Part shown: in pieces, positions 6,901 through 36,149 of the stretch | Position numbering within the stretch: the stretch's first letter is position 1 | How the letters are laid out: every line of letters begins with the position of its first letter | Source: Saccoglossus kowalevskii | Taxonomy: Eukaryota > Hemichordata > Enteropneusta > Harrimaniidae | Assembly (NCBI RefSeq): GCF_000003605.2 | Contig: NW_003128865.1 | Coordinates: 316,355-365,245 of the forward strand | Reading direction: 5' to 3' | Length of the DNA stretch: 48,891 nucleotides | Program-made: the position numbers and the translations under genes | The notes under the pieces: model-generated | Database searches by the model: none | What the model saw: the letters and a program-made list of their open reading frames with translations, nothing else | What the model was told of the DNA's origin: nothing

Positions 6901-9900
6901 AGTGATACGGCGGTGGCTACAAGAAAACTTCTTCAAAAGTGAGTAGTATAGCAGTATCCACTACAAATACAAGTGTTTTTAGGTTTATAGTTATCACTTA
7001 ATTTCGTATATGACGCGCGAACACTAAATGTAGAACGTAAGTCAAATATCTCGACAATGTGAATAATGAATCCAATATTTTCTATTCATTTAATAACTGC
7101 ATAAAGGGTCAATGTTGTCACAATCCATTCTAAAGTGTCATTCATCACTGTTTTTTTCAGCACGGCAATTGTAGAAGTCTATGCGTTAAAAAATGATTTT
7201 ACCAATTCTCAGGACAATGTTGACAAGACTAAGGAGTTTGTATACTTTGTGGATCTTGCAGAGGCAATGCAAATTGATTCAGATGGCACACCAGGGGTTC
7301 TTTTAACTGGAACAGATTTTGACGACTTCCCTGTAGAAAGTGTGCAACCAACATATGAACTCATTAATACGCATAATAGCTATAGCTGGTGGCTTAACAC
7401 AGCTGAAGGAAATGCTACAATTGCCATCTTGATATTATTGGTGATAATTGTCATTGTCTCCATATGCTGTTGCTGCTGGTTCGTCATCCGCAAACAAGCC
7501 CGAAGTGATAAACAAGAAATCACTTCAAGAGCCGATGTTAACAAGAGTGGTGAGAATAATCTAAATAAGTAAGTTCACGTGATTTTATCGTCACATATAT
7601 TTAGAGGTTATGGACAGCAAACGAGGGTTACGCTCGGTTATTAGCGCCCGCTAAATATGCTAATTTTTCCCAGCAAGGTCTTTATCTGCTAACATAACAT
7701 ACTCGCACAAGAAATACACAACTGCATATTAGCTGCCCATTGCTTTGTGCAGATTTTCATTACTCCCAACGTCTTTTTCGGATATACAACTGTTGTAAAG
7801 GATGACGAAAAGCCATGTCTTTATAAACACCTAATCGTGTGAAAACATCATACCCCGATTTTCACTATATTGCGTATATAATGATTTCCACTGGGATTTG
7901 GGGTTCTATTTGCGTGAACTTACACTCATTTTGAGCAATCTGAAATTTATTGGCAGTTTATTCAAATTTTGTTTCGGTAATCGCGAAAGCTGACATGTGG
8001 CGATATATAAAGTGATACCAAATATGATGTAATAAAAATAATAGTAAATAGTAAAAATAAAATGAAATATAATAACATTAAGTTAAATTCACGCCGCACA
8101 TTACATCAGATTTTAAAATCAGATTGATACTAATTAAGATTTTACATTTGAACATTATCAAATATATTGTTAACGAACTATAGAAACAATTTTAAATAGT
8201 ACATCAGCAAAAATCCATCAGAAAATATACACCATGTATATAATCTCAAAGGTGACTGCAGGCTCAGCCGAAAAATCAAAACCATGACCTTTGGGTTTTT
8301 ACTGGCCCTAAACACACTTATAAATATCAGATCAATTTAATCTAACTGAATTCAACTCAATAAAACCCCTGTGCGATTGTCCAGTATTTTGTTCCGAAGT
8401 CTCGGTGATACAACTGAGCTGTCACTCTAGTAATTTGTGTGTCCACCATTTAGAATCAGGTGATTTCAGATAAACATTCAAATAAATATCAGATCAATTT
8501 AATCTAACCTGAATTCAACTCAGTAAAACCCCTGTCTCGGTGATACAACTGATCTGTCACTCTAGTAATTTGTGTGTCCACCATTTAGAATCAGGTGATT
8601 TCAGATAAACATTCAAATAAATATCAGATCAATTTAATCTAACCTGAATTCAACTCAGTAAAACCCCTGTCTCGGTGATACAACTGATCTGTCACTCTAG
8701 TAAGTTGTGTGTCCACCATTTAGAATCAGATAAACATTCAAATACGATTCTAAGGATTGGTTATTCTGCTGGCATTTTTAGTGAAACAGTGACATAGAAG
8801 CATGCAATTTTTGCAAAACCTTTATTTGGAAAATTCCTGAAACATTCCTTAAACATAATTACAATGTTACATAATAGTTTAATTTGTGAGTTATTTAAAA
8901 ATTCGTATGTCTATTGAATTCTAGCTCATCCATTGTACATATGTTAGAAGATAAGAAACTCATTGAAAAAGATGGGATCATTACTGATCAGTCAGAATTA
9001 CAGAAAAACGTGGGTGACAGTATAGATGAAAAAGATGCTGACAGTAATGGTATTAGGAAAGACCTAGTGGAGTGAGTTTATGTGATTGTACAAGCACGCG
9101 TAATATAAATAATTTCTACAACATTCGAGGTTGTCACTTTTTGCAATGTTAATGTGTATAACATATGTATATTCTTTTCCATCAAGCGTGCCAGCCGTTG
9201 AGAAGGCAGGTGATACGAAACTCATTGAAAAGGATAAGCTGTCGAGTGATCAGTCAAAACTAAAAAACGGCGTTGGGGACAATTTAGATGAGAAGAATGT
9301 CGACAAGAATGGTATTAAGAAGGACTCGAACGAGTGAGTTTAATTATATCAAAACACATAATACAAATAATTTCTAGAAAACTCGAATATGTTGTTTCTA
9401 TTTGTAATGTGAACTTTCAATGCATATGGTCCATTTCCTTCAAGCGCGTCCGTTGCCAAGAAAGCAGGTGTTACAAAGCAAACTAAGAAGCTAAAGGACA
9501 AAGATAATCTATCTAGCGATCAGTCAAAATTAAAAAACGGCGTTGGGGACAATTTAGATGTCAAGAATGTCGACAAGAATGGTATTAAGAAGGACTCGAA
9601 CGAGTAAGTTTATATAATTGTATCAGGAAACATAATACACACCATTTCTAGAAAACTAATATGTTGTTTTGTAATGTGAACTTGCAATGCATATGACCTT
9701 TTCTCTTCAAGCGCGTCCGTTACCAATAAAGCAGGTGATACGAAGCAAAATAAGAAGCTAATAGACAAAAATAATGTATCTAGTGATCAGCCAAAATTAA
9801 AGAGCGTCACAGGGGACAATTTAGATGGCAAGGATACCGATAAGAATACCACTAGGAAGGACCCGAACAAGTGAGTTTATGTAAAGTTAAAAGCTCATAT

Positions 9901-12455
9901 AAAATGTTTTCCAAGAAATTCAATATTATTTTCACTATTTGTAATGCACAAAACTGATCTGACTCTAAATAAGAAAAAGGAAGCCACCTAGAGATCCGTC
10001 AAAATTATAGAGAGACTTTGTAGACAATTTAAATGACAAGCAGTAAAAGGGATCTGAACGAGTGAGATAAGTCTTTTAAATTGAATGAGCTCAATTTAGA
10101 ATGTAAGTCGTTTCTCGTGTTCAAGATTAGTTTGTAATACATATGTCTTTTCTCATACATATTCTCTCAAGGTCATCCGTCGTTCATAAAGCAGGGGATA
10201 CGAATCTGAATGAAAAGAAGAAGCTGTCTAGTGATCAGTCTAAATTAAAGCAAAGTTCAGGCGTAAAAGATGACACTCGGGCGTCAGAAAGCACGTCGAA
10301 GAAAGATTCCACTTCCCTGTCACAGATGAAAAATACCAATCAGAAAACTGGGAAGGATGTCACGGTAGAGCAAAACAAATCATTAGCGACGGAGAAGAAC
10401 AACATACTAGTGAATACTCTATCTGCACCTGAAAGTAATGACAGGAAAGACAGTGTAATAGGTCCTCTTCCGGATATGTCCAAGAAGAATAAAACACAAC
10501 CAAAGACATTAACGAAAGGTTGGTCAACGTCTTAATACATTTCCATAAAGTACTTTATAGACGTTCAGAAACTTTAACAAGCACTCAACCTATTGGTTGT
10601 AGGAAATTCATTATTAGGTCAATAAGCGAAGACACAAAAGAAAATGGTTCAAGCTCTTGACTGAAGGAAAATGGACAAAGTGAGGTTTTGATATTTTTTT
10701 ATACTATCGAGGATTCGTACTAAGTCAGTTTCATTTGTTTCTCAATGCAGGATTGTCGACAAGAAGTCTTGTTTCAAACAAGAACTTGACTAGCAGAGGT
10801 GAGTACAGATTCAATAGAATAGAATAGAAGTCATTGTACAGTTCTCGGGCCCTATAAAGAGTCACTTATTTTCAAACGCCGTAGGCTGTCTGCCTGTCGA
10901 CTGTGGACAGTCTACAATCAGAAATACATGAATACATCGACTTCATTCAATCCTAGCAAAAAAAAGTAGTTAGTATTGGTTTTCAAAATGTAATTAGGTA
11001 TCTTACAAATATATATGTGAAAACAGTTAAATAAAGACATAAAAAATAGAACTATTAATCATGTAAGAACTATTATGTTCATCAACCTAGGCATTAAAGC
11101 TAGGCATTAATGTTGATACGACGATTTGGATGAAAGTNNNNNNNNNNNNNNNNNNNNNNNNNNNNNNNNNNNNNNNNNNNNNNNNNNNNNNNNNNNNNNN
11201 NNNNNNNNNNNNNNNNNNNNNNNNNNNNNNNNNNNNNNNNNNNNNNNNNNNNNNNNNNNNNNNNNNNNNNNNNNNNNNNNNNNNNNNNNNNNNNNNNNNN
11301 NNNNNNNNNNNNNNNNNNNNNNNNNNNNNNNNNNNNNNNNNNNNNNNNNNNNNNNNNNNNNNNNNNNNNNNNNNNNNNNNNNNNNNNNNNNNNNNNNNNN
11401 NNNNNNNNNNNNNNNNNNNNNNNNNNNNNNNNNNNNNNNNNNNNNNNNNNNNNNNNNNNNNNNNNNNNNNNNNNNNNNNNNNNNNNNNNNNNNNNNNNNN
11501 NNNNNNNNNNNNNNNNNNNNNNNNNNNNNNNNNNNNNNNNNNNNNNNNNNNNNNNNNNNNNNNNNNNNNNNNNNNNNNNNNNNNNNNNNNNNNNNNNNNN
11601 NNNNNNNNNNNNNNNNNNNNNNNNNNNNNNNNNNNNNNNNNNNNNNNNNNNNNNNNNNNNNNNNNNNNNNNNNNNNNNNNNNNNNNNNNNNNNNNNNNNN
11701 NNNNNNNNNNNNNNNNNNNNNNNNNNNNNNNNNNNNNNNNNNNNNNNNNNNNNNNNNNNNNNNNNNNNNNNNNNNNNNNNNNNNNNNNNNNNNNNNNNNN
11801 NNNNNNNNNNNNNNNNNNNNNNNNNNNNNNNNNNNNNNNNNNNNNNNNNNNNNNNNNNNNNNNNNNNNNNNNNNNNNNNNNNNNNNNNNNCATTGTATAT
11901 TCAATGTCACGCCTCAGTTTTTTACAATGATTTCATTGCGTACCATTGCTCGTGATATTTGGCTGTATTGCATTTTAACAAAAAATACAACATACTAACT
12001 AAGGGGTGGATACCTGGATTTTGTGTCAAAGATCAATTTCTATCGTGACACCAATATACTTGTTCGACTATGTACATGTATATTGCAGGATTAATATTAC
12101 ACCTTTTATGTTACAACATATCTGTGGAGATTATATGCTATACCTTCCAACAAATAGTATAGGCATTCCAATAGAAACAAACTGTGATGACTTATGTATC
12201 TGATTTACATGTCACAAAGGTCATTCTACTTGGCTGTATTTAATGTGGTTATTTTTTTCTTTGTGTCTATTAGACCATTTTTTGTACTTGCTGAATATTT
12301 GTCAGTCGTTTGTTTTTGTGGTTGTGTTATTTTTACTACATAATTTTAATTGATTATATTTTTCAGTTAGAAGACCCAGAGATGACAAGGATAATTTTAG
12401 TATTTCTAGCAGAGTAACCCCAAAATTCAAACCTGAAGGGCTGAAATGGTTTTAA
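403..12455 (+). CDS. Gene A: cadherin-like single-pass membrane protein (5' end outside window)
   Basis: Model: join 403-696, 3239-3562, 4166-4362, 4465-5140, 5354-5513, 6738-6938, 7161-7568, 8925-9071, 9187-9333, 9445-9603, 9712-9870, 10172-10518, 10751-10798, 12367-12455. After a 2-nt partial codon this gives 1118 codons with the TAA stop, in frame at every junction. Seen: cadherin-like repeats (DFE, DENEAP, YDNAP motifs), a membrane-adjacent domain, one hydrophobic helix (about 7414-7491) followed by RK, then a long Lys/Asp/Ser-rich tail made of repeated exons. Known: such repeats mediate cell adhesion or extracellular recognition at the plasma membrane. Inferred: an adhesion receptor. The ectodomain aligns exon by exon with gene B. 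The signal peptide and first repeats must lie upstream of the window. The gap at 11138-11890 could hide a further phase-1 exon. Exon borders are firm for the ectodomain, less so for the last two exons. Confidence 0.82.
904..975. repeat. (AAAT)n microsatellite
   Basis: Uninterrupted aaat/aata tetranucleotide run within the first gene A intron of the window. Confidence 0.95.
2767..2899. mobile_element. MITE copy 1 (TTAA-type, imperfect TIRs)
   Basis: The left end AGGGCGGCAGTCGTCGTGC pairs imperfectly with the reverse complement of the right end GCGCGACGACCACCGCGCT. The right flank is TTAA; the left flank is CTAA, probably a mutated TTAA target duplication. It is nearly the same as the copy at 38527-38650. 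No coding capacity, so it is non-autonomous. The superfamily is not determined. Confidence 0.7.
3239..3562 (+). CDS. Gene A exon: cadherin-like repeat with DENEAP linker
   Basis: Acceptor aaacacag and donor GTAAGC; 324 nt, phase 1-1. It encodes ILDFETVDEYTLSVTCHD, the cadherin signature DENEAP, and the start of the next repeat (VPEDA, DGYDVDGNSLSF). It is paralogous to gene B 24612-24923. Confidence 0.93.
3563..4165 (+). other. Gene A intron
   Basis: Intron ending in a long T tract and the acceptor aaacag. Nothing else is recognised in it. Confidence 0.6.
4166..4362 (+). CDS. Gene A exon: cadherin-like repeat, phase 1-0
   Basis: 197 nt, identical in length to gene B 26396-26592. It encodes the FDFEDVQQYSLVLEATDG strand pair, a linker VAEPPVF and the start of the next repeat (DEEQ). 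The acceptor follows a 17-T tract; the donor is CAG|GTGAGA. The final phase of 0 is unusual in this gene and is shared with gene B. Confidence 0.92.
4465..5140 (+). CDS. Gene A exon: two cadherin-like repeats
   Basis: 676 nt, phase 0-1, and the largest ectodomain exon. It encodes DWAVTDVDDVLTDL, a MDYEASF strand, a linker NIYDNAP (degenerate against cadherin DxNDNxP), and a second repeat ending in the VATDLGSNRDTAFVQVTV strand. It is paralogous to gene B 26790-27474, where the linker is the canonical DVNDNTP. Confidence 0.94.
5354..5513 (+). CDS. Gene A exon: end of last cadherin-like region, phase 1-2
   Basis: 160 nt, the same length as gene B 27643-27802. It encodes FRMTTDGQVFVAGKL and YYVEDDSVPP. 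Acceptor atatttcag, donor GG|GTGAGT. Confidence 0.9.
5514..6737 (+). other. Gene A intron
   Basis: Intron of about 1.2 kb. Small ORFs on both strands near 6445-6731 have no recognised homology, and nothing else is seen. Confidence 0.6.
6738..6938 (+). CDS. Gene A exon: membrane-adjacent domain, first half
   Basis: 201 nt, phase 2-2, the same length as gene B 29226-29426. It encodes MIRIDTYIPQMVLVDIHLG and KPWKYRISSIRSD. The pattern of strand, helix and strand next to the membrane recalls the ferredoxin-like or SEA-like membrane-adjacent domains of long cadherins such as CDH23 and PCDH15. That is an inference from pattern, not a detected match. Confidence 0.9.
7161..7568 (+). CDS. Gene A exon: membrane-adjacent domain, second half, and transmembrane helix
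   Basis: 408 nt, phase 2-2. It encodes AIVEVYALKNDF, KEFVYFVDLAEAM, a DGTP..LLTGTDFDDFP stretch, then WWLNTAEGNAT and a strongly hydrophobic helix (about 7414-7491) with a CCCCW cluster, followed by the stop-transfer residues RK. Donor AA|GTAAGT. If this intron were retained, a TAA follows at once at 7570, giving a protein with a very short tail. Confidence 0.93.
7569..8924 (+). other. Gene A intron with tandem repeat
   Basis: Intron between the transmembrane exon and the repeated tail exons. It contains the repeat at 8320-8745; the rest is AT-rich without recognised features. Confidence 0.6.
8320..8745. repeat. Tandem repeat of about 135 bp, three units
   Basis: Three units each carry ATATCAGATCAATTTAATCT, then AACCCCTGT, TCTCGGTGATACAACTGA and GTGTGTCCACCATTTAGAA. 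The first unit is longer (about 162 bp), with an extra block near 8371-8400. The second and third are nearly identical and spaced 135 bp apart. Confidence 0.88.
8925..9071 (+). CDS. Gene A tail repeat exon 1
   Basis: 147 nt, phase 2-2, acceptor ttctag, donor GA|GTGAGT. It encodes an acidic and basic repeat with KLIEKDG, TDQSEL and DEKDADSNGIRKDL. It is the most diverged live member of a tandem exon family (9187, 9445, 9712, 10172). Low complexity and cytoplasmic by position; function unknown. Confidence 0.72.
9187..9333 (+). CDS. Gene A tail repeat exon 2
   Basis: 147 nt, phase 2-2, acceptor catcaag, donor GA|GTGAGT. It encodes KAGDTKLIEKDKL, SSDQSKLK and DEKNVDKNGIKKDSN. The 3' two thirds are almost identical in DNA to exon 9445-9603, which indicates recent duplication or gene conversion. 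Confidence 0.78.
9445..9603 (+). CDS. Gene A tail repeat exon 3
   Basis: 159 nt, phase 2-2, acceptor cttcaag, donor GA|GTAAGT. It encodes KKAGVTKQTKKLKDKD, SSDQSKLK and DVKNVDKNGIKKDSN. It is four codons longer than the exon before it. Confidence 0.78.
9712..9870 (+). CDS. Gene A tail repeat exon 4
   Basis: 159 nt, phase 2-2, acceptor cttcaag, donor AA|GTGAGT. It encodes NKAGDTKQNKKLIDKN, SSDQPKLK and DGKDTDKNTTRKDPN. Confidence 0.75.
9968..10061 (+). pseudogene. Dead copy of the gene A tail repeat exon
   Basis: It aligns with the flanking repeat exons (GATCCGTCAAAATTA, GACAATTTAAATGACAAG, GATCTGAACGAGTGAG) at the expected spacing, but carries a TAG in the repeat frame, deletions, and no clear acceptor. 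It is therefore a decayed unit spliced out as intron. Confidence 0.75.
10172..10518 (+). CDS. Gene A tail exon 6, extended repeat unit
   Basis: 347 nt, phase 2-1, acceptor ctctcaag, donor AAAG|GTTGGT. It starts with the repeat (KAGDTNLNEKKKL, SSDQSKLK) and continues into Ser/Thr/Lys-rich sequence (SESTSKKDSTSLSQMKN). If the donor is not used the ORF stops at 10533-10535, which would be an alternative C terminus. Confidence 0.75.
10751..10798 (+). CDS. Gene A tail micro-exon, 48 nt
   Basis: Acceptor aatgcag, donor G|GTGAGT, phase 1-1. It encodes LSTRSLVSNKNLTSR. Length, phase and position match gene B exon 31913-31960, suggesting a common origin even though the residues have diverged. Confidence 0.65.
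10799..12366 (+). other. Gene A intron with assembly gap
   Basis: Contains the N run 11138-11890. The sequenced flanks show no exon-like ORF. Short ORFs that cross the gap are artefacts. Confidence 0.6.
11138..11890. other. Assembly gap (N run)
   Basis: Unknown bases. Because the flanking gene A exons are both phase 1, a missing symmetric tail exon could sit here without any sign in the model. Confidence 0.99.
12367..12455 (+). CDS. Gene A terminal exon with stop
   Basis: Acceptor atttttcag after a T-rich tract. The phase-1 join gives RRPRDDKDNFSISRVTPKF and ends KWF with TAA at 12453-12455. The phase matches the 48-nt exon upstream. No clear AATAAA was found close downstream, so the transcript end is not placed. 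Confidence 0.68.
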
Positions 12456-16745: not shown

Positions 16746-17341
16746 AACTGGATCTGGAATGACTGTGCTTTATTTGCATAATACGCATGCAACATTTGAC
16801 AGAGGGTGCTTTGTTATTTTTCCGTTCACACTTTTAATTTTGACTTGACCGTATGGAGTTTAGTAGACCCAGGATTCCGTAGTGTTTCCGGTCTGTTATA
16901 TCCGAGAGCTCACACCTTCTCGTGCTGATTACATTAATTAACATGTCTTTAACTTTATCATATTGACATGAGTTTCCAGGTTCTTTTGAAAAAAAGACAA
17001 AATGGGGTGTTGTACAAGTTCAATTCACGAATTGGACATTTTTTAGTTATTCTGTTGGCAGACAAACATACAGACTACGTCGGTCTTAAAAGAAACAAAT
17101 GTAAACGCGTTAAGGCGGCCTAACGTCGGCGTTATATTAGCCCTTTAGAATTTTTTTTAGCGAAGTCGGGTCGCCGTAGCTCTGTAACTATGAAAGCATA
17201 AACGCCCGAAGTGCATGGTGGCATTTGTTGATCCACTAAGGATCCTTGATTTCCGTCTGGAATGGTTTGGCTATAACAAAATATAGAAGATATATTTATG
17301 ATGACACATGATGATATAGGGCGGTGTTGTGTACCGGAATA

Positions 17342-22800: not shown

Positions 22801-25800
22801 TTCTTCCTTACATTCTTAGTTTATGTGTATATAGCATCTATACATTCACTGTTCATTTTCAATTTCTAAACTAGTTTAAATATTACATCTATCACTTTTT
22901 TATTCCTGTCTATTGTGTGTGCATATTGCTCTCAATTTTCCATTCAATTCTCTCCCAATTCTGCGTTTTATACTATACACTTAATGACTTAATGACATGT
23001 GTATCACACAGGAAGTCCTACCATTACAAATCTAGATGATACTGTACAGATTGGTGAATTGAGTCCAGGAGGATCGGTCGTTAAGGTTGTGGAAGCAACG
23101 GACGACGATGGCGATGCTTATTATTGTATCATGTCTGCAAGTCCGAACGACGGTAACTTTATAATAAACACAGGTATGCAAGCCATATTATATTAACATT
23201 CTAACGAATAAAAAATACCTGACTAGTTTAATAAATCTGATTTTGTATGGTAACACATTTAATATTCTGTTCATTCTATATGTCTGATTCACTACTTGTA
23301 AGCTAACACAGTGGTCGTATTCTGTAAGCATGTATCCAATACATCGTGGAGCATCCTATGTCATTTTTTGTATTAATGATTACCGTAGATACACACCTGT
23401 TAAAATCAGTTTACTATAGTAACGCGTTTACCATCACCATAATTATAGTTTAGATGATGTATTGGTAACAATTCATGCCATTTACATAATCAGTTGGACC
23501 ACTGGACACGGGTGTGTGGACGTTATTTCGGTTCTTTTGAAGTATATACAGTAGATTTACTAATTGAAATCATATTTATTAAAGTTATTGTTCATACATG
23601 AGTTGTTCAAAACACTATATGTTTTGTAATTTCATTCAGCTGCTGTCAGTCATAATTCAAGATATCGAGATTCAATATAGCGAATGAATTATCTTTTCTC
23701 TGTTAATTGTTTGTGTAATCGATAATTATGAAAATGATCATTAGTGTAAACATTTAGGTATAATATGTTTCTGGTTTTTCAGTTGTTTTTGTCCCCCCCC
23801 CCCCCACGAAAAAACTAAATAATTTCATAAAGTCGAAAACAAAAGTATTTATCGTAGTGTTTTATTGTGTCTCGGGAAAGTTGAACCTTCCATGTACTAG
23901 GTGAACACGCAAAACATATATTGGGTATATTGAGTTGCTTGGTTACGCCAACCATTTAAACGTTTGATTATTTTTTGCAATAATATACAAAAGATGTCGT
24001 TTACTGTATACAGTGTGTTGTCAAAATACACATACATTAATGTACTTACTACTCGTACAAAGGTATTACATATTACACAGAGCTCGTGACTTGTGAGGCA
24101 ACTAGATGAATTTAAATTAGCACTATGATATTAGACCCAAGAAATCAATTCACTTCTAGCCTGCTGCCATGAGGTAATGAACACCTAGAGGAAGGTACCC
24201 AGTCAAACACCACATATTCGTATACGCACTGCACAGAATGAGAATGCCAAACACAATCACATACAAATGTAGATATACTTTGTAATACATGGTCCACATC
24301 CAAATTAGAATATACGGTGACAAAAATAGAATAAGAAATATAACATAACCCAGGCGACGTGCACTGAAGACATCTTTCATCAAAAAGAAAGAATCCTTAA
24401 ACCACAACAGCTGTAATTAAAAGGGAGATTATGAGAAAGAGATGGTTAGGTTTTGTTTCAGGTCCTCACAGTTTCCACAAATATGTATTTTTTCACTTCT
24501 CGATGTTTCAGTTTCTGGAAACTAAAATACACATATATTATAGTTACATTCGTCACAATTCATTTTAGTTATTAAATACATCAATTTCCTCTACTTTCTT
24601 GTTTTCAACAGGTTCAAACACTATATACGTTAGCGATCCGCACACGTTAGACTTTGAAACCTTGACTGAGTACAAACTCACAGTGACGTGTCATGACAAT
24701 ATCAATGCTGGTACACCTCGAGTACTGACGGTTCAGATCACTAACGAGAATGAAGCACCGCAAATACCCAGCTTACCAGCCACGGCCAGCGTACTTGAAG
24801 ATGCTGTCAATTCGGTATCTATATTTGAAGTTAGTGGTTATGACGTGGATGGAAATGCACTGAGTTATTCTCTGGTGGTTACACCCTCTAGTGGCCAGGG
24901 AAAATTTTTTGTTATCAATTCAAGTAAGTATGCATGTGAGAATACATGTATGTGTGTGATACATCACAGGTAAGGTTAGTATCTACCTTGCATGCCCATT
25001 GTATCTTACGAAATGTACGATATGTGCCAAGTTGACACATGCACGATGACGTGATGCACATACGATACATGTCATTTGAACTCATGTACAGTCACTCCAA
25101 TGCATGTATGATACATGCCTAGTGGAAGCATGCCTAGTCACGTAATGCATGTATGATACATGCCTAGTGGAAGCATGCCTAGTCACCTAATGCATGTATG
25201 ATACATGTCTAGTGGAAGCATGTCTAGTCATGTAATGAACGTATGATACATGCCTAGTGGAAGCATGCCTAGTCACGTAATTCATGTACGATACATGCCT
25301 AGTAGAAGCATGCCTAGTCACGTAATGAACGTATGATACATGCCTAGTGGAAGCATGCATAGTCACGTAATGCATGTATGATACATACCTAGTGGTAGCA
25401 TGTCTAGTCACGTAATGCATGTATGATACATGCCTAGTGGAAACATGCCTAGTCACGTAATGCATGTATGATACATGTCTAGTNNNNNNNNNNNNNNNNN
25501 NNNNNNNNNNNNNNNNNNNNNNNNNNNNNNNNNTAGTAGAAGCATGCCTAATCACGCAATGCATGTATGATACATGCCTAGTTTGGAAACATGCCTAGTC
25601 ACGTAATGCATACATGATACATGCCTAGTGGAAACATGCATAGTCACGTAATGCATGCATGATACATGCCTAGTGGTAGCATGCCTAGTCACGTAATGCA
25701 TGTATGATACATGCCTAGCGAAATCATGGCTAGTCACGTAATGCATGTATAATACATTCCTAGTGGAAGCATGCCTAGTCACGTAATGCATGTATTATAC

Positions 25801-28800
25801 ATGCCTAGTGGAAGCATGCATAGTCACGTAATGCATGTATGATACATGCCTAGTGGGAGCATGGTTGCGTAATGTGGATGCGGAGGTGTTAAAATCACTA
25901 TTATACTTTTATTCAATGTATTGTCGGGAAACATATGTTGGTGTATTAAATCACTGTCCTATCCTACGTGGTTTGAGTAATGTGACGTGTCAATTTGAAT
26001 CACGTGATTTACCATACAAAAAAAACATGTTACTTTATACAAGGATATGCTGGACTTACATTTTAAAACTACCTTTTTACATAGACTTGATTATCGGAAA
26101 CTACACTTGTTTGCTCTCCGGGCTTTGGCGTTTTCGTCTCCCCGTTTTAACCATCCGAATAAAGATTACCAGTTCAAACCATACTATGACCACAGTCTAA
26201 ATCATTCGGTGATGTTCATTAATCGATAATCATTTACTGACAATAGCATGTAATATACTCACTGCACAAACAGTTGTAAAACACTCAGTTTTACACAGAT
26301 ATGTTTATTATCAAGATTGTTTATTTTAATTTATTACATAACACATGCAGGAAATGGAACATATCATTTAAGTCAGTTCTTATTACTCACAACAGATACC
26401 TACGATGCGACCGTTTCTATATCTAGCAATCCTTCTTTTGACTTCGAGGATGTTGACCAATATTCCTTAGTATTAGAAGCCACTGATGGGGCATTAACTG
26501 CAACTGGTACCCTGAATGTCGATATTGTGGATATAGCAGAACCACCCATATTTGTAAATGATAACCAAGATATTTATTTGGATGAGGAACAGGTATTCTT
26601 AATTTGATAATTTGAATATAATTACATTAGCGTTTACAGTGTAGACATTTAATAACATGCTGGTAAGTAAACCGAATATTCAATATTTCGCACTGGTGGA
26701 TTCACTACGACATTAGTGAGTATTGATAAAAGTAAACCATAGTCAAAATGTAGTAAATACACTGTATCGTAATTATATTTGCTTCACAGAGTGTTTTGAC
26801 ACAAGTGCCTGTTGACTGGACTGTTACTGACGTGGATGATGTATTAACTGACTTAACATATAATATGATTGCTGGGACCTATTCTCCATACTTCAGTTTA
26901 ACTGGTGGAACAAATCCACAATTACGTATTGCGCAAGTCATGGATTATGAAGCATCCTTCCCAGTCCCATTTCCCTTAATGTTTTCTGTCACGGATCCAA
27001 GAGGCGAGACAGATTTCCTGGTAGTTAATATATTCCTGCAGGATGTCAATGACAATACACCAACATTTTCTCAGGCAGTATATCCTGCAAGTGTGTATGA
27101 TGGCGCGAGACACGGTGTATCTGTTCTGCATGTTCTAGCTGTGGACGAAGATGAACTTGACAACATTACTTACTCCATAGAACCAGAGAATGCATACTTT
27201 GACATTGATTCGTTCTATGGGGAAGTGACTTTGAAACAAACCATTAACGCTACAATCATTGGGTGGACCACTCAGTTTACAGTGGTTGCTATGGATACAA
27301 ACTCGCAGCAAGATACGGCAACTGTTGTGATTAATTTTTTTAATACAGATCTTACATCTGAAATCATCCCCTTTCCATTCGCTGTTGGACAAACATATTA
27401 TAACTGGGAGGTTGCCTACAACGCCGAAGATGGTACGAGTGTTAATAATGTGATGATAGATAACGATTACCAAGGTGATTTTGTATATAAATATTTCATT
27501 TCGTTTAATTATATTACTATCATAAAATGTTGTTTCTGCTTTTTACAACAATTTAGAAACTAGTTACACATACTGTGGGTTTTTATAATAATATGATGTT
27601 ACCATACGTATGATTAATTATATATGTATATATTTTTTGTAGGTAACACTGATTCGATAATATTCAAGTTATATTTATCACATCCACAATTCCAAATGTC
27701 AACTAGTGGTCATGTATTTATTACAAACAAACTGGATTCAGAAAAAAAATATCTACTCACATGCTATGCCGAAGATGATAGTGTACCGCCTGCGGGATCT
27801 GAGTGAGTCATTATAACAGTTACATCTTTCACATGCATGAGAGCAATTACTGCATCATTATTTGTTACTTGTTATTTGTTAAATTAGATATTTGACCCAT
27901 TGAACTATATCCCAAGAAGTCAGCTCGAAAAGGCCTGTCATGAGCACTCCCTACAGTGACTACATGAGCAATAAACAAGCCTTAATCTCTGACGACACAA
28001 ACCACGTGAACTATTGTAACTATAAAATAGCCACGTTCGGGTTTTGTTTAACTGCACAATTTCTGAACATTCCCCTTGAATTCTATAGAAGATTACTTCC
28101 TCCCTCTCCCACTTGAAAATGTGCAGGTGGTGTTGTGTCTGAAGCCGATGTTAGTGGGCTTTTATCAAGTTGAAGCGTCATTCCGCTGATTATTTTGTTT
28201 TTTGCCTCATTTTGCAACACACAGTGTTGAACATTTGATAAACAGTTCCTCGCTAAAAACAACCGTAAAATGGTGGTTTCACTCTGCCTTCTTTTATGTG
28301 GGATGAAGCTAGGTTTAAAATGTACTCTATACCATGTAACTATTTTGTACACACTGTACACATATTTTGTCACAATATGTTAAATAGCTGATCACAGAAA
28401 CCGGAAGAGCTCACTGATGACATTAATGGTGATGCCGTAAGGCCGATACCTTTAATATTATTTACGAGAACTCAATTTTTTTAATTGGTTATGTACCTGC
28501 CTAATAACAATAAAAGATCCAAGATGTACTATCTCCCATTTAAGAGGAATACAAATGGAGTTTGACAAATATGATAACAGGGTTTGTTATTTTATATTTT
28601 AGAAATGTCAAAGCTTGCCAGAATTAATTTTTTTAGGTTGCAACTTATTTGTAAATGTGGTAAAAAAGTGCATGCACCTTCTACATTCGTAGGACAGCGG
28701 TAGCTCTTTGGTGAATATGATATATATGCCGATGGTAGCTTCTTTAAAATTTCGTCAGCTTGTGCTCTGAATAATTTAACCCGCATGTTTAAAACTCATT

Positions 28801-31800
28801 ATTGTGAGAGCATTATATCATAACATTAATATTGATACTTTTAGCAAATCTAATCTAATCTCTACAGGAAATTTTGAAAATGTAACAGCGTAGGTCAGAA
28901 ATTAACTCAATAAACATTACTAATCACCATATGATTAATTATTCGGATTCATAAGAAAATACCAAAAATGTCACACAGCAAAACAACGTATTTGATGTAG
29001 AGATTGTTCACATTTGAGCTGTTTCACGTGATATTGCTGTTGAAATCTGAAATCTTTCAACTTGCAAAAGTAAATTATGCAAATTGTGCTTACACAACAC
29101 GTGGTCACGTGACTTCTTTTAACAATTATTTTTTTATAATACAACATTATTATACTAAAAAGAAGTTTAAGAAGAGACACAAATACATTTTATACAGCCA
29201 ACATCCCTTCTGTTAATATCCACAGCGTTTCTATGATTCGTATCGACACCTACATACCACAACTGGTTGTTGTTGACCTCTATTTGGGGATTTCAGTTGA
29301 CGAATTCACTACAGTAAAGCAAACAGAGTTTATTGAAACACTGGACGATATCTATAATCCGTGGAAGTTTAGAATATCAGCGATTCATGGTGATATACAG
29401 GTTTCTTCAAGAAAACTACTTCAGAGGTAAATGAGTGTAAATGTGTGTAAATGCGATAATTTATTATAAGTGTTGGGGAATATTTATACATGTACACATT
29501 ATTAAGAAAACGTGGAAGACAAGGCAGACTAACAGTACATGACATTATTCAGATGCTTACAAGCTTAATACAGACTACTTTAATAAACTATTATGTCTAT
29601 TATATAGTGTCGTCACATACATTGACATATCTATAAACACAATTTCATTTTTTCAATTCAAAGTTTTGATCTGTGAGAATATAACTATTACAGATTTTAC
29701 AAACGCAGTGTGCCGTGCACCGGCATGTTCCAGCACGTTTACGTATAAATATTCACTGTGGGAAGATATGCGTAGAGGGCGTTTTAGACCATTTTGTACT
29801 GTTATACCAGATAATACGAGCGACGTAGTACTCGACGCTTTTTGGCCAGTGAAAAATAGAGCATGAAAATCACCCGATGTTTTGTGAAACGGTGATCGCA
29901 AGTCAGTGTTGCCCGCGTTCGCCTAGCAAGGGCAATAGTTAAATGAAACTTTTCCTAGCTCCTATAATGATAGATATTGATACATATATTGATTGTATTT
30001 CCAACGCAGCTTGTAGGTACATTTTGTAACAACCCATGACTGTTGTCAGTTATTGTCAGCAAAATAAAAATATACGAGTATAACAATGGTGCATAGCCAG
30101 ATTTCATGACCTAAACACAACATCGATTTCATTGATTTTTATCGATTTGTTTTTTTACGGAATGAGCTCGTATTGGACAACTGGTCAAGATCTACCACAT
30201 ACATGTGTAAATATGTATGTAAAGTTCAGTTTGTGCACTTCACTGGTATGCACGGTCTAACCTCAACAGTATGAATGTCGGAATACTTATTCAACTTGGA
30301 GGTTCGACAATTCCTGGTTTTCCCGTCGACAATGTTAGCTAAAGATAAACATTACTGTCAACAGTCCAACAATTATTGTGCATTCAACAAGTCTTTATTA
30401 ATACATTGAGTTATTTCTATACAGACCATTAACTATTTCTAACATGGATTTCTACTCAGCACTGCCACTGTGGAAGTATATGCTTTAACAAACGATCTTA
30501 CTGACAGTCAAGACAATGTCGACATGATTAAAGAATTTGTGTACTTTGAGGAGCTCACAGCGGCAATGAGAAAAGACACAGATGGAACACCCATGGCTAT
30601 CATAACTGGATCGGAGTTTGACAATTTTCCTATAGTTAAGGTGGAACCAGCGACTGAGCTAATTACAACATATAACATCGGCAACTGGTGGCTTGAAACT
30701 GTTGCGGGCAATGTTACAATTGCCTTTCTTTCGTTACTGGGACTTTTACTCTTTCTGCTAATTGGATTTTGTTGTTGGCGGTTCTTTATAGCCAAAAAAT
30801 GTAGACGTGATAAAAAAGAAGTCATTGAGCAGAAAGACACAAAGTTAGTATATACATAATAATGCGTGTAACCTTTACCATTAATCATACCGTTTTATTT
30901 GTTAACCCTTATAATGTTTTGAGTGTGATGTGTTTATTCACAAACCGGATATATTCATCCGCTTTCAGAGTCTCGAAGTCTTCATTTGTCATTTTCTTTA
31001 GTTAATGTATGAATTTGAATTCGCTGTTTTCATTTCAGACATTGTGTGATTGAAATGCCTGCTGTGGAAGACAAACCTCTGCCCCAAATGCATGACAGGG
31101 AAGCACATATAATGACTAAGGACAAAAACAAGACTGACATGTCCGAAGAATCGTCTACAAAACCTGCATTGTTTAGAGAGTCGAATATAGCCGTTCATAA
31201 ACAACCAGTTACCACAATACAATATACCAAATCTGTACCAAAGGAAAATGAAAACACCTCACACACTACCAAGACTACATTGTCATTTGCAATCCCCGAT
31301 ACTAAATCCAAATCATCCGTTGTTTCTCCTAAACAGCCGTCCAACCTTCCAAACTCAAACTCAACCACCAAATCAACATCTGTATCCACGCCATCCAAAA
31401 ACTCTCCCTCCCAGATGACTGACAAAACCACGTTGACATTTAGAGTGGACGACCCTAAATCACAGTCAGCCACCAAAGACACGGCCACACAGCCGTCTAC
31501 TCTTCTAAACAGATCGACTGATACCACCACATCAACATCTGCATCCACACCATCCAAAAACTCTCCCACCCAGATGACTGGCAAAACTACGTTGACATTT
31601 AGAGTGGACGATCCCAAACCCCAGTCAGCCAAAGACACGGCCGCACAACCACCTATTCCAATCATATTGACAAACGATGATACCGATTCCATTGGGTCAT
31701 TTCACTCTGATGATGACGAAACAAAAACTCCGACGAACAAAAGTGAGTTAAGTGAAAAATAACAATATGTACGCTTAATTTTATTTAAAAAGTATGCTCA

Positions 31801-34800
31801 TAACTTGTCAAAGCCAAAAAAAGTATGTAAATATATAGCTGTCAATATATATAGATGTATCAACAATATTGCTGTTGTAAACTGCATATCATAATATTTA
31901 TCTTATATTCAGATAAGTCTGGGAGAAGACGCAGTTTGCGCAGAGCGAGTGTTGTATCAGGCAAGTTATTTGTTGTAGTAGTCACATTGTTAAGATATCA
32001 GTGAACTTTAACCTCATATTCAATATAACATATCCATGAAGAGAAGGCTTTTATTTTTGAAAAGTATTATTCCATGGCAACAGTAATTCTTACGTATATG
32101 ATTATTAGTACTTAGAGTTGACTAGAACGTATCAATTTTATACAGGAAAGAAAAAGAGACACAGTATACGCAGATCAAGTGCCTCGAAAGATCAGCTCAA
32201 GTTGCTTCAACTTGGGGAAGGTAAATAACTACAATTTACACCTAGTTTTGTCGATATTTTTTTTGATTCTAAATTCAACTCGCATTATAATAAACATATA
32301 TAGGCCCGTTACTTTTACTTTATGATCAAACTTATGTGAATGCATTTGTGAATCGCTGCTTTTCATCATGTACCATTTTTATTCAGCGAAACCTAAAAAA
32401 AGACACAGTATACGCAGAGCCAGCGTAGCTAAAGGACAAATACAATCACTTCAGGTTAATGATGGACAAGGTCAGTTATTTTGATTTACCCTAGTTATAC
32501 TTGTGAATTGAAACTATTATCACCAGATATCACTTATTCGTAGCGTTGGTATATACTCGTGACGTCATGGGTACGGTACGGTTCGGTTCGTTAATAATAC
32601 CAACCCACGATCGCAATGGCTATATATTTAATTGGTTTCACAACAAATAATACTGACCATAACATAATTGCTGTTTTTAGTATTTTGGCGTCAGTACTCC
32701 TTGGTGCCGGCGGTTTAGTACAAAACGTCTTGTCGAATTCGAGAAAAAAAAATCGAGCAAATCACAAAATACAGCATGTTTCACCATAAAAAGTACTATA
32801 TAGTAGTAGATGGAGTATCATTTACTGGAGAAAAACTGAAATATGTATTCAAAAGACCGCAATGAAAACCTATTTGGCCACCGAATTAGAGGTCACCTTA
32901 CAACACTGATAGATACTGGGACTTTCATCTAGAGAGATTAACGATAACTCACTACTACAAGATTCGGTTTTCGAAAATCATGTTCAATATGTAATCATAA
33001 ATGTCCATATGTTGACTATGTAGTGTAACATCGTCCACCTGTGATGTCTTAATATGTAAATTTATGTGACTAATAGATCTAGAACGTGATTGGTCAGTAC
33101 AAACTCCAGGTGCGGTTGTAAGTCAAATATGTAAGGGAATGCTGTCAACTCGTGCATTATTCTTTACAGAAGAAAATCATGATCGAACCATATAAATACA
33201 GCTAGGTTTTTAATTTTTTGCCAAGTTTATATGCAATCTTCTATTAGGTTTTGTGAATTCATTCCTCCAAGTCGAGACATAAATCTGCACGTGGCATGAG
33301 TTCAAAATTCCAAATTAATACTGGTAGTAATCTAGAGACATCACAGATTACATTCTATATTGCATCACAAGTCAATTCCTTGCAGAAACAAGAGCCATGA
33401 AATAACAATTAGTCACGTTTCCATGTAGTAATTCTCGGTATGTTCACGGTAAATTCAAACCGAGGCCCTTTCACAGTCCGGAATTGTACAACTCAAAATA
33501 AAAAGTCAAACAAACCGGGTAGCATCAAAAAAACACATCGAGAACGAATGAAAATGTTTGATATTCGCCGCGGCAATGACATTTACTGGCTAGAAGTCGA
33601 GTCTCAGTCAAGGTTTCCATGTCATTAGAAGTCACATTTAACTAACGATAACGATGTCAAAGATACATATAAAAAGCCCTGTTTCACAATAGATGTCCAT
33701 ATATTGAACTATTTGTAAAACTGCTGCGAAATAAATACATGAAATAAATAAGATATCCAAATCGTGACTCTACAATATATATATATATATCGTTTATGCT
33801 AGCGTCACAAAGATTGTAGAAAAAACTGCCTGTGGTTACATATATATTATTGATCACTGCATAATATAATTGTAATATATTTATAGGGAAGCCTAAGAAG
33901 AGACATAGCATTCGTAAAGCCAGTGTATTTAAAGAGCAGATTCAATTGCTCAATGTTCCTAATCCAGATGATCCTTCTGCAGATAGCAAACAAGGTCAGT
34001 AATCGCATTACACACTGGTGCCGCTTGTGAAGTGAACTTAATTTCGGATTAGTACATCATTATTATATATCTGTGCAACTATTAAACATATTAAATGGTA
34101 TTTTGTCTAAACTTGTGGGGAAAATCGGATTACACCGATAAGAACAAAATACAATAGTGTATGATATATATTCCCATTCCTCGAACTGGTCAGATTGTTT
34201 TGCACATACAAAGATGTTAACAGTATTGTATATATTGTAATTGTAAAAGAGTCGGGGTTATTTGTGCATTCATATATATTTGAGTAATGTGTGCAGAATA
34301 ACTGGATGTTTAAAGGCATGCAAACGGTTCCAATAAAAAGAAACAGCATGTCTGGCAAGCGCATTGTTTTACTGTTATCAGTGTGACAGTAATTAATGCC
34401 TAAACATAGTGACATTGGGTGATCAAACAGCTTTAAATCCAACGTCGGTAGTATTCACTAAATACTCATCTCATATACGCCTTACAAAACAAAACGTGTG
34501 TGCATGATTAAAGGTATGATGTATTTATTTACAGCCAAGCCCCAAAAAAGGCACAGCATTCGTAAAGCCAGTGTATTAAAAGATCAGATCAAGCTGCTCA
34601 AAGTTCCTGAATCAGACAATCCATCTGCTAATAGCAAACAAGGTCAGTAAATTCATTATATACCTGTGTACAACATGGGCGGAGTAGAAATAATTATAAT
34701 AATTGACATCTTGTTTGCAATGTGATCACGATTGGTGAATAATTGTGATGTCACACCACGAGGTCAGTAAAATTGACACAAGTGGTGATGTCAGAGTGTA

Positions 34801-36149
34801 TGCACGGTATGGCTGTTACCGCCATAAGGACACTTTGTTATTTATACAACGGAAAATGGATTTCAACTTAAGCTATTTTCGCAAAATGCTGGTCAAAAAT
34901 GATAAAACAGTATCAATCTGCAATTTTCTGCAAAATAGTTACTTTAATTAAATAAATGTTTCTATCACACCAGAGTAATAGATAATCTACTACTACAACA
35001 AGTGACCAAATACAAGTTATTAAATAAATATTTCGCCTAGCGTTGCATTCAAAGGGTTTGTTGTCTTTATTAAAACATTTTTACTGGGTATGTTGTACTG
35101 ACCATAAATACGTAACCTTATATGTCTGTAGTTGTCTATGACGTCGGAGATTTCGCTAGTTCATGACCATCTAGTTCATGTCCACTTTCATCACATACAA
35201 TGTTAACCATTATTTCGGTGCATTGAGGTGCACGTCTGCTTACAGTGGCCATGCAATTTGCCATGGTTGTGATATCACTTTCCCGCCTAGAGAGAGTCTA
35301 TTATACCTCAATCAAATGCAATGTATGAGTTAAAACTGTCTGTGGTTACATATATATTATTGATCACTGCATAATATAATTGTAATATATTTATAGGGAA
35401 GCCTAAGAAGAGACATAGCATTCGTAAAGCCAGTGTATTTAAAGAGCAGATTCAATTGCTCAATGTTCCTAATCCAGATGATCCTTCTGCAGATAGCAAA
35501 CAAGGTCAGTATTTACATTTTACACTATTGGCTCATGTCAACTTTTAGTATCGGATTAATGAATCATTATTATATCTTTTTGTAACTAATAAACCGTTTA
35601 AATTTGAGAAAAAATGTGATTAAGTAACATTGGGCAACAAGCTAAGAATACTTAAAATCAACTCCCATTATACATAGTCACGCCCGAAGCCTATATCCGC
35701 ACTCATTGTTATTTCACTTTTGACGTACAATTAATGAAATCTCCTTTATACAGGAAAGCCAAAGAAAAGGCACAGTATACGCAGAGCCAGTGTAGCTAAA
35801 GGACATGCGCAGTCAGCTCAAGCTAAAGGTTAGTACTTTTATATTGGTGTCCTCCTTGTTTTCTTATACACAGTGGAATGGGATTAAATGATGATACTAA
35901 CGAAATATTTTATAGGATTAAATTTGTCACAACAATCTATATATATATATACATGGACAAAATTATTTTTATACGAAATATAATCTAATATACTATGTAA
36001 ATTTGTTTTTATGTGACATGTACGTCAATAATATGTAATATTCAGTGACAAAATTATATTTCCGCTTTCTTGCAGCCGGGTCAGAAAATAAGGCCAGAAA
36101 GGATCGTAGGGTTTCTGTCTCACTTGCAGACCAAATTAAAAATGTTTAA
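19804..36149 (+). CDS. Gene B: cadherin-like single-pass membrane protein with basic-motif repeat tail
   Basis: Model: join 19804-19861, 23012-23173, 24612-24923, 26396-26592, 26790-27474, 27643-27802, 29226-29426, 30460-30843, 31039-31742, 31913-31960, 32146-32220, 32387-32470, 33887-33994, 34535-34642, 35397-35504, 35754-35828, 36076-36149. The total is 3543 nt, exactly 1180 residues plus stop. Seen: signal peptide, cadherin-like repeats including a canonical DVNDNTP linker, membrane-adjacent domain, one helix (about 30713-30787) followed by AKKCRRDKK, a Ser/Thr-rich tail, then eight short exons each with an R-[RK]-x-S motif. Inferred: an adhesion receptor at the plasma membrane whose tail may be phosphorylated by a basophilic kinase. 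Relative to gene C it lacks the first cadherin exons. All junction phases match; transcript evidence would settle the 5' end. Confidence 0.85.
19862..23011 (+). other. Gene B intron 1
   Basis: About 3.1 kb. It holds an inverted repeat CCGCAAAGTATG (20002-20013) with CATACTTTGCGG (20080-20091), and a C/CA-rich microsatellite near 21634-21670. No counterpart of gene C exons 44271, 46217 or 47453 is found here. ORFs at 20597-21089 and 22392-22694 are unrecognised. Confidence 0.6.
20002..20091. repeat. Short inverted repeat
   Basis: 12-bp perfect arms CCGCAAAGTATG and CATACTTTGCGG flank about 66 bp. Possibly a small foldback element; no other evidence. Confidence 0.6.
23012..23173 (+). CDS. Gene B exon 2: truncated cadherin-like repeat exon
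   Basis: 162 nt, phase 1-1, acceptor cacacag, donor GTATGC. It encodes TITNLDDTVQIGELSPGGS and VEATDDDGDAYYCIMSASPN, matching only the second half of the gene A (403-696) and gene C (47859-48155) exons. The start falls exactly where gene C has ACAG inside the exon, in the same codon phase. Confidence 0.88.
23174..24611 (+). other. Gene B intron 2
   Basis: Contains a poly-C run at about 23794-23807 and a possible minus-strand exon at 24156-24410, listed separately. Confidence 0.6.
24156..24410 (-). CDS. Possible antisense exon for a hydrophobic protein fragment
   Basis: On the minus strand an acceptor-like ctcccttttaattacag ends near 24415 and is followed by an ORF of about 84 residues ending in TAG. 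The residues include FSARRLGYVIFLILFLSPYI and YLHLYVIVFGILILCSAYTN, which suggest two membrane helices. I do not recognise the family. It lies wholly inside a gene B intron. It may be the last exon of a nested gene, a fragment of one, or chance. Confidence 0.25.
   Translation of the reverse strand: MLWFKDSFFLMKDVFSARRLGYVIFLILFLSPYILIWMWTMYYKVYLHLYVIVFGILILCSAYTNMWCLTGYLPLGVHYLMAAG
24612..24923 (+). CDS. Gene B exon 3: cadherin-like repeat
   Basis: 312 nt, phase 1-1, acceptor ttcaacag, donor GTAAGT. It encodes LDFETLTEYKLTVTCHD, the linker NENEAP and SGYDVDGNALSYSL. It is paralogous to gene A 3239-3562 and four codons shorter. Confidence 0.93.
25085..25862. repeat. 45-bp minisatellite, main locus
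   Basis: About 17 units of TGCATGTATGATACATGCCT plus AGTGGAAGCATGCCTAGTCA plus CGTAA. Each unit contains near-palindromes (CATGTATGATACATG and GCATGC). It is interrupted by an N run at 25484-25533, where the array was probably collapsed or unresolved. Confidence 0.95.
25484..25533. other. Assembly gap (N run)
   Basis: Fifty N bases inside the minisatellite. The true array length is therefore uncertain. Confidence 0.99.
26396..26592 (+). CDS. Gene B exon 4: cadherin-like repeat, phase 1-0
   Basis: 197 nt, the same length and phases as gene A 4166-4362. It encodes FDFEDVDQYSLVLEATDG and IAEPPIF. Acceptor caacag, donor CAG|GTATTC. Confidence 0.92.
26790..27474 (+). CDS. Gene B exon 5: two cadherin-like repeats
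   Basis: 685 nt, phase 0-1. It encodes DWTVTDVDDVLTDL, MDYEASF, the canonical cadherin linker DVNDNTP, then a second repeat with LAVDEDELDNITYSIEPEN and VVAMDTNSQQDTATVVI. Acceptor cttcacag, donor G|GTGATT. Confidence 0.95.
27643..27802 (+). CDS. Gene B exon 6, phase 1-2
   Basis: 160 nt, the same as gene A 5354-5513. It encodes FQMSTSGHVFITNKL and CYAEDDSVPP. Acceptor ttttgtag, donor GA|GTGAGT. Confidence 0.92.
27803..29225 (+). other. Gene B intron 6
   Basis: About 1.4 kb. Minus-strand ORFs near 28083-28373 and 28592-28786 are unrecognised and lack splice or start support. Confidence 0.55.
29226..29426 (+). CDS. Gene B exon 7: membrane-adjacent domain, first half
   Basis: 201 nt, phase 2-2. 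It encodes MIRIDTYIPQLVVVDLYLG and NPWKFRISAIHGD, strongly conserved with gene A 6738-6938. Acceptor cacag, donor AG|GTAAAT. Confidence 0.92.
29427..30459 (+). other. Gene B intron 7
   Basis: About 1 kb with no supported feature. An ORF at 29666-29866 is unrecognised. Confidence 0.55.
30460..30843 (+). CDS. Gene B exon 8: membrane-adjacent domain, second half, and transmembrane helix
   Basis: 384 nt, phase 2-2. It encodes ATVEVYALTNDL, KEFVYFEELTAAM, a DGTP..IITGSEFDNFP stretch, NWWLETVAGNVT, then a hydrophobic helix (about 30713-30787) and the basic stop-transfer AKKCRRDKK. Donor AA|GTTAGT. Retention of this intron would add a few residues and stop at 30857-30859. Confidence 0.93.
31039..31742 (+). 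CDS. Gene B exon 9: Ser/Thr/Lys-rich cytoplasmic tail with internal repeats
   Basis: 704 nt, phase 2-1, acceptor catttcag, donor A|GTGAGT. It encodes a low-complexity tail with three copies of a K-T-T-L-[ST]-F-x-[VI]-x-D-x-K motif (KTTLSFAIPDTK, then KTTLTFRVDDPK twice), separated by STPSKNSP[ST]QMT spacers, and an acidic end (TDSIGSFHSDDDE). It has no counterpart in gene A. Likely disordered, with many potential proline-directed Ser/Thr sites. Confidence 0.88.
31913..31960 (+). CDS. Gene B basic-motif exon 1, GC donor
   Basis: 48 nt, phase 1-1. It encodes KSGRRRSLRRASVVS. Acceptor attcag. The donor reads G|GCAAGT, a GC-AG intron; the nearest GT alternative would break the reading phase. The core LRRAS matches the classical PKA substrate consensus. 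Confidence 0.82.
32146..32220 (+). CDS. Gene B basic-motif exon 2
   Basis: 75 nt, phase 1-1, acceptor tatacag, donor GTAAAT. It encodes KKKRHSIRRSSASKDQLKLL. Confidence 0.85.
32387..32470 (+). CDS. Gene B basic-motif exon 3
   Basis: 84 nt, phase 1-1, acceptor attcag, donor GTCAGT. It encodes KPKKRHSIRRASVAKGQIQS and a short acidic or polar end. Confidence 0.87.
32471..33886 (+). other. Gene B intron between basic-motif exons 3 and 4
   Basis: About 1.4 kb, no supported feature apart from a TA-rich run near 33775-33791. The last part (from about 33830) is identical to 35340 onward. Confidence 0.6.
33830..34001. repeat. Exact duplication, copy 1 (partner at 35340-35511)
   Basis: About 172 bp of intron end, exon and donor match the segment 1510 bases downstream with no mismatch by eye. 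Flanking intron beyond it is diverged. Confidence 0.9.
33887..33994 (+). CDS. Gene B basic-motif exon 4
   Basis: 108 nt, phase 1-1, acceptor ttatag, donor GTCAGT. It encodes KPKKRHSIRKASVFKEQIQL followed by a VPNPDDPSADSKQ linker. Its DNA is identical to exon 35397-35504. Confidence 0.88.
33995..34534 (+). other. Gene B intron between basic-motif exons 4 and 5
   Basis: No feature seen. Its start resembles 35505-35600, showing that the unit was duplicated together with intron sequence. Confidence 0.55.
34535..34642 (+). CDS. Gene B basic-motif exon 5
   Basis: 108 nt, phase 1-1, acceptor ttacag, donor GTCAGT. It encodes KPQKRHSIRKASVLKDQIKL with a VPESDNPSANSKQ linker. Confidence 0.88.
34643..35396 (+). 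other. Gene B intron between basic-motif exons 5 and 6
   Basis: No supported feature. An ORF at 34745-34951 is unrecognised. Confidence 0.55.
35340..35511. repeat. Exact duplication, copy 2 (partner at 33830-34001)
   Basis: Second copy of the identical block that covers basic-motif exon 6 and the preceding 57 bases of intron. Confidence 0.9.
35397..35504 (+). CDS. Gene B basic-motif exon 6
   Basis: 108 nt, phase 1-1, identical in sequence to exon 33887-33994, including its acceptor and donor. Confidence 0.86.
35754..35828 (+). CDS. Gene B basic-motif exon 7
   Basis: 75 nt, phase 1-1, acceptor tatacag, donor GTTAGT. It encodes KPKKRHSIRRASVAKGHAQS. Confidence 0.86.
36076..36149 (+). CDS. 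Gene B terminal exon with stop
   Basis: Acceptor cttgcag, joined in phase 1. It encodes GSENKARKDRRVSVSLADQI and ends KNV with TAA at 36147-36149. It keeps a degenerate motif, RRVSV. The longer ORF in another frame (36070-36291) does not agree with the incoming phase. Confidence 0.82.

Follow-up and report, generated by a model that had tools for sequence, protein, structure and literature searches.

What kind of receptor carries a cytoplasmic tail in which candidate kinase sites are multiplied exon by exon, and are those sites under constraint? The question is raised by gene B, which lies in a 48,891-nucleotide stretch of animal genomic DNA (C2073:316355-365245, here called the window). A first-pass annotation of this DNA had described an adhesion receptor whose tail ends in eight exons, each with a basophilic-kinase site. 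The explanation offered here is that gene B encodes a single-pass cadherin receptor in a tandem cluster, with a cytoplasmic tail built as an exon array through which kinases of the PKA/PKC class would grade its charge or docking. Taken as a whole, this explanation is tentative and stands slightly short of an even chance.

Layout of gene B

The following features of gene B, given in window positions, underlie the analysis.

26757..27563, + strand: open frame with a cadherin-repeat exon (PF00028, E 1.9e-9, 38.2 bits against a cut-off of 28.8)
30455..30843, + strand: membrane-proximal and transmembrane exon; 5' edge approximate; donor gttagt, phase 2
31039..31742, + strand: first tail exon; Ser/Thr/Pro-rich; net charge 0; none of the counted basophilic motifs
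31913..31960, + strand: array exon 1, 48 nt; RRRSL-RRASV; GC donor; probably related to the unit
32146..32220, + strand: array exon 2, 75 nt; KRHSI-RRSSA
32387..32470, + strand: array exon 3, 84 nt; KRHSI-RRASV
33887..33994, + strand: array exon 4, 108 nt; KRHSI-RKASV; same sequence as exon 6
34535..34642, + strand: array exon 5, 108 nt; KRHSI-RKASV
35397..35504, + strand: array exon 6, 108 nt; copy of exon 4
35754..35828, + strand: array exon 7, 75 nt; KRHSI-RRASV
36076..36149, + strand: array exon 8, final coding exon, continuing the frame of exon 7; single site RRVSV, then stop

Judged from its translated frames, gene B has the putatively extracellular cadherin repeats that define the cadherin superfamily. 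The cadherin-repeat frame at 26757-27563 is 57% identical to gene A (4462-5164) across 234 residues, and PF00028 also appears below its cut-off in three further gene B frames, and also in 27618-27806. In the protein joined from the membrane-proximal exon and the tail, hydropathy peaks at 2.79 over 19 residues within 30455-30843, against 0.58 for the runner-up, predicting a single transmembrane segment ahead of the tail. The earlier identification of an adhesion receptor of the cadherin kind is thus supported by a PF00028 frame above cut-off and by one hydrophobic span before the tail.

Gene B shares cadherin repeats and one membrane span with classical cadherins. Unlike their catenin-binding tails, its tail is an exon array, and the 588-residue protein joined from the membrane-proximal exon and the tail gives no Pfam Cadherin_C match with the E limit set at 1. 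The transmembrane frame of gene A gives a sub-threshold Cadherin_C_2 match (E 0.099) that disappears when the A tail is joined to it. Within the first tail exon of gene B, a 159-base coding repeat of 1.8 copies (31364-31647) forms a second level of tail repetition.

All eight array exons have AG acceptors. Donors are GT in exons 2-7 and GC in exon 1. GTA or GTG is the usual donor start, and here donors begin with GTC in exons 3-6 and with GTT in exon 7. The intron after 31742 and the introns between array exons are all in phase 1, and the frame joined from the transmembrane exon has a single stop, at the end of exon 8. The coordinates, core sequences and phases that the first-pass annotation gave for the eight exons were all reproduced, and its claim that array exons 1-7 can be removed without a frameshift holds for every one of the 128 skip combinations, each of which retains the frame to the exon 8 stop. 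Read-through at any of the eight donors (that of exon 31039-31742 and those of array exons 1-7) meets a stop after no more than 14 added residues. In the 1151 bases 3' of the gene B stop, AATAAA and ATTAAA are absent. Because the array consists of copied in-frame exons, the number of kinase sites could vary through exon addition or skipping.

Copies, paired sites and apparent constraint in the array

The first-pass annotation took all eight exons for variants of KKRHSIRRASV and proposed a protein search with the repeat profile. Such a profile, built from units 1, 2, 3, 4, 5 and 7 and run against 2170 open segments of the window, recovers array exons 1-7 at E values of 5.1e-8 or lower, far ahead of the next segment (E 4.3). 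In leave-one-out searches, throughout which unit 4 (identical to exon 6) stayed in the profile, units 2, 3, 5 and 7 are each recovered at E values no higher than 2e-7. With exon 1 left out of the profile, it is still the best segment after exons 2-7, yet at E 0.27. A DNA profile of units 2, 3, 4, 5 and 7 finds exons 2-7 at E values of at most 9.4e-17 and exon 1, which lies outside the profile, at E 0.011. Exon 8 is missed by the protein profile and ranks 39 among 1763 reported sequences when set against 2000 shuffles of itself. By these comparisons, the array would comprise six certain copies (exons 2-7), one probable copy (exon 1) and one doubtful copy (exon 8), all in one frame, and the earlier claim is corrected in that a true variant of KKRHSIRRASV is confined to exons 2-7. 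A possible decayed unit near 34330, inside array intron 4, was also considered; its score is equalled in 5 of 300 shuffles and the DNA profile does not report it, leaving it as a lead only.

The closest pair of copies gives a view of how the array may have changed. Exon 6 matches exon 4 at all 108 bases, and their flanks agree at 59 of 60 bases upstream and at 27 of 40 downstream. Identity is 20/20 in each window of 20 bases across 33832-33991, 12/20 directly before and 15/20 directly after, and a weaker, gapped similarity runs on to 34096. The near-perfect stretch thus spans about 160-180 bases and falls off on both sides, and these edges suggest either a recent duplication of short extent or an older one overlaid by a short tract of conversion.

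Elsewhere, the unit was sought in the 572,110,611-base assembly of the same genome. All matches fall inside the gene B array (4 of 4 with an E limit of 0.001, and 7 of 7 with a limit of 10), and since these searches scored only the best candidates (6 and 7), they do not amount to absolute absence from the rest of the genome. A tblastn search at E up to 0.5 finds no B unit in the stretches of Z, Y, C, D, E, C4774 and C346, several of which are part N. The tail has no sequence match in the PDB at E up to 10 and no Pfam family above cut-off, the best being PhnJ at E 0.0098, which is read as chance. Among viral contigs, 21 stretches fit a pattern and none is confirmed as a relative. In the literature, no cadherin tail of this kind is described among the matches listed, in a search whose coverage excludes most subscription journals.

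Each of array exons 1-7 carries two basophilic sites exactly five residues apart, and exon 8 carries one. The first site of the pair is KRHSI, or RRRSL in exon 1. The earlier count of one R-[RK]-x-S site per exon was therefore correct as to those sites, which are present, and overlooked the second site in each of exons 1-7. A unit peptide with its two serine sites is as follows.

KPKKRHSIRRASVAKGQ

Across its 226 residues, the array contains 15 [KR][KR]xS-hydrophobic sites, against a mean of 0.59 and a maximum of 4 in 5000 shuffles; these do not represent 15 independent events, since the copies share descent. Nine sites take the form R[RK]xS-hydrophobic. R-R-x-S-hydrophobic is the PKA-type substrate consensus, and the array sites that fit it are candidate PKA-type sites; the R-x-S-x-R of the first site (KRHSI-RR) presumably suits PKC as well as PKA. 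Single motifs of the form R[RK]xS[VAIL] do occur by chance, with 10 matches outside the array when the window is read in all six frames, including one that runs across a stop. The first serines of consecutive doublets are spaced 15, 26, 28, 36, 36 and 36 residues apart.

The array has a net charge of +43 in its 226 residues, against 0 for exon 31039-31742, and this part of the tail is strongly basic and probably disordered. The units (net +3 to +8 each) present a basic cluster with kinase-type serines, as in membrane motifs of the MARCKS and Lgl kind. The first-pass annotation had also entertained basic membrane-binding patches. In its amphipathic-face form, this idea finds no support in units 1-7, where the best hydrophobic moment is reached or exceeded by a fraction of 0.23-0.65 of shuffles; for unit 8 the fraction is 0.045. 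An amphipathic helix of the MARCKS-like or calmodulin-like type was accordingly dropped as a main argument.

Comparison between units indicates where the repeat resists change. In the 11-residue core KKRHSIRRASV, pS is 0.80 and pN 0.07, against 0.62 and 0.38 in the rest of the unit, giving pN/pS of 0.09 and 0.61 from ten non-independent pairs of units 2, 3, 4, 5 and 7. Counting changes in two independent pairs, 3-7 and 4-5, gives 7 synonymous and 1 nonsynonymous in the core (P under neutrality 1e-4 to 5e-4, varying with the transition bias assumed) and 9 and 16 in the rest of the unit (P 0.08 to 0.29), values that do not reject neutrality. The contrast between core and rest in these pairs gives a Fisher p of 0.017, in codon tests that draw on few changes and on synonymous sites near saturation. 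An unconstrained R-R-x-S core, which the first-pass annotation had named as telling against its reading, is not what these ratios of 7:1 and 9:16 suggest. All 5 distinct units of exons 2-7 retain the serine of each site, which accounts for two of the nine invariant columns, and the H and I of the core likewise never vary; the other 6 columns in which at least one unit has S or T are variable or gapped. Since a merely basic patch needs no serine, the invariance of both serines points to constraint on the core as a kinase-type site. On the few changes available in one genome, the 11-residue core looks constrained.

The tandem cluster and its tails

Gene B is one of a series. Its transmembrane exon has ten matches in the genome, seven in tandem on contig C2073 and three on other contigs (E 7.8e-8 to 2.4e-5). 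The seven tandem exons lie within C2073:265068-416613, about 150 kb, at these contig positions.

265068: gene Z
297571: gene Y
323513: gene A
346812: gene B
388844: gene C
402454: gene D
416236: gene E

Over about 105 residues, the transmembrane exon of B is 54 to 58% identical to those of five of its six siblings and 36% identical to that of E. Matches to the cadherin-repeat sequence of B occur in A and C; the comparison with Z and Y covers the transmembrane exon and the tail. Gene A carries a tail array of its own, in window positions.

8925..10518, + strand: gene A tail, five exons with an unrelated repeat and phase 2 joins (8925-9071, 9187-9333, 9445-9603, 9712-9870, 10172-10518)

Genes A and Y are 89% identical in the transmembrane exon, and both have a phase 2 tail array unrelated to that of B, with no paired sites and only single motif matches. 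Their tail DNA agrees at 1470 of 1631 aligned bases, with A longer by one 267-base unit of exon plus intron and, further downstream, by three smaller gaps of 53, 49 and 29 bases. The number of tail exons thus turns over within the cluster, and the earlier idea that tail exons come and go in frame is borne out at the level of the cluster by this 267-base difference. The Y array lies in C2073:299233-300516 and shows by eye a diverged unit-like frame at about 299950-300080, where A looks broken at about 9940-10065. Gene Z seemingly has a single unit of the A/Y type, judging from open frames in a region where 18,154 of 20,000 bases are N. Downstream of their transmembrane exons, C and D have open frames of yet another kind, with no exon array seen among them. 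Because A and Y amplified an unrelated repeat without the B motif, amplification by itself is no evidence for kinase function.

Two candidate relatives of the B unit in gene A were rejected. The profile of the unit reports neither a 48-nt exon nor a candidate last exon (10842-10969, with RRLSA), and the latter is partly missing in Y, across the 49- and 29-base gaps. Several further observations concern the cluster. A frame after the C transmembrane exon (C2073:389966-390190) has R-K-x-S-V shortly before its stop and is somewhat like B exon 8, and a frame after the last tandem transmembrane exon (C2073:417656-417763) bears a putative resemblance to part of a WW domain. Some 56 copies of a 29-base unit are repeated in tandem (window 44485-46094) within the cadherin-like exons of gene C or immediately upstream of them, and a similar 45-base tandem repeat occurs at two cluster sites (window 25099-25863 and 16566-16753).

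In vertebrate clustered protocadherins, many ectodomain exons are joined to one constant tail. The likeness to the present locus lies in a tandem cluster of related adhesion genes. Whereas the vertebrate proteins share their tail, each of the seven paralogs here has its own transmembrane exon, and the ectodomains compared (A, B and C) are alike while the tails seen differ. As read in genomic DNA, the frames of A, B, Y, C and D indicate tails that are different or belong to the gene itself, and no shared constant tail.

Candidate mechanism and competing readings

The proposal as a whole is that the tail of B consists of repeated paired sites by which kinases of the PKA/PKC class grade its charge or docking. 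It is advanced with caution, at a little less than even confidence; the kinase, the phosphorylation, the switch, exon skipping and the use of all exons are steps that we infer. The basic tail segment would have arisen through repeated in-frame duplication of one exon, so that each full unit presents a pair of basophilic serines at a distance of five residues, in KRHSI and in R-[RK]-A-S-V or sequences close to these. Several of the 15 sites would most likely be phosphorylated by an AGC-type kinase (PKA or a PKC isoform), leading to a stepwise loss of positive charge from the tail. These charge steps could in turn grade how firmly the tail attaches to the inner membrane or an acidic partner, or phosphorylation could create docking sites. 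Unit number would fix the range of the response and would be altered by exon duplication, conversion or skipping.

Two known systems share parts of this arrangement. The P-site of Lgl/Llgl1 comprises several serines in a membrane-binding loop, and their phosphorylation by aPKC causes the protein to leave the membrane (PMC11996676). As described in the portions of the source available, it resembles the proposed B tail in offering closely spaced serines to a kinase of the PKC family (PMC11996676), and it is the nearest working analogue with published data. It differs from B in that its serines, at least three, form a single cluster within a propeller-protein loop; the protein is no receptor, and those portions mention no exon array (PMC11996676). 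The PEVK region of titin, an entropic spring spread over many exons, has sites for PKC-alpha and CaMKII-delta in exons 219 and 225, and in mice lacking PEVK exons 219-225 these two sites are lost and the splicing of other PEVK exons is altered (PMC7274174). As far as the available text describes it, titin PEVK is, unlike the B tail, a mechanical spring of muscle rather than a receptor tail, with sites in particular exons and not a pair in each unit (PMC7274174).

How many of the sites reach the protein depends on splicing. It is somewhat unlikely, though far from negligible, that some array exons go unused in the mature mRNA, leaving the protein with fewer units than the gene; the GC donor of exon 1, the GTC and GTT donors of exons 3-6 and 7 and the in-frame outcome of every skip are consistent with this, whereas the open frames, AG acceptors and compatible phases of all eight exons argue for their use. 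The paired sites might alternatively serve as a docking ladder, in which basic-serine motifs bind a folded partner, for example 14-3-3 in a phosphorylation-dependent manner, and copy number sets avidity. The regular doublets, five residues apart and with first serines at intervals of 15 to 36 residues (15, 26, 28, 36, 36, 36), and a core far better conserved than the linkers fit such a ladder, which we consider unlikely overall. The best known 14-3-3 motif has proline at +2, and the array sites, having no such proline, do not match it; nor does any partner suggest itself, because the tail has no PDB relative and no Pfam family over cut-off.

Charge and youth of the copies give two further explanations. 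The conserved part might be a basic targeting signal, for nuclear import after tail cleavage or for RNA or microtubule binding, with the serines secondary. A KPKKR cluster in exons 3, 4, 6 and 7 and the strong net charge agree with this, but it does not explain why both serines, the H and the I never vary among the distinct units of exons 2-7, of which there are 5, and it is accordingly judged improbable. More improbable still is largely neutral exon amplification in a fast-evolving cluster, with a tail that tolerates repeats and a core that is alike because the copies are young. The amplification of an unrelated exon in A and Y, the extra unit in A, the apparently single unit in the mostly N stretch of Z, the recent or converted copies in exons 4 and 6 and the rest of the unit, which is consistent with neutrality, all suit that explanation. 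The core does not, since its pS of 0.80 is near saturation while pN is 0.07, so that its likeness is not explained by the youth of the copies.

The components of gene B (a cadherin, tandem exons and basophilic sites) are of known kinds, while their combination in a selected, gene-specific, in-frame ladder of paired candidate kinase sites, in the tail of a cadherin whose cluster has unlike tails, was not met in the part of the literature searched. If expressed as read, gene B would be an adhesion receptor whose kinase sites can be counted in the genome and altered exon by exon, and a natural test bed for whether multisite phosphorylation acts in a graded or a switch-like way. A broader and rather speculative view, to which we give low credence, is that the cluster keeps its ectodomains alike and diversifies its tails, that two lineages independently made in-frame arrays, and that B is a phosphorylation rheostat whose site number is set by exon copies and splicing. 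If this view is true, the cluster would mirror the vertebrate clustered protocadherins in reverse, offering one kind of contact and many graded responses. With a different array and a one-unit difference among its siblings, the cluster allows the birth and loss of exons in signalling tails to be traced within a single locus.
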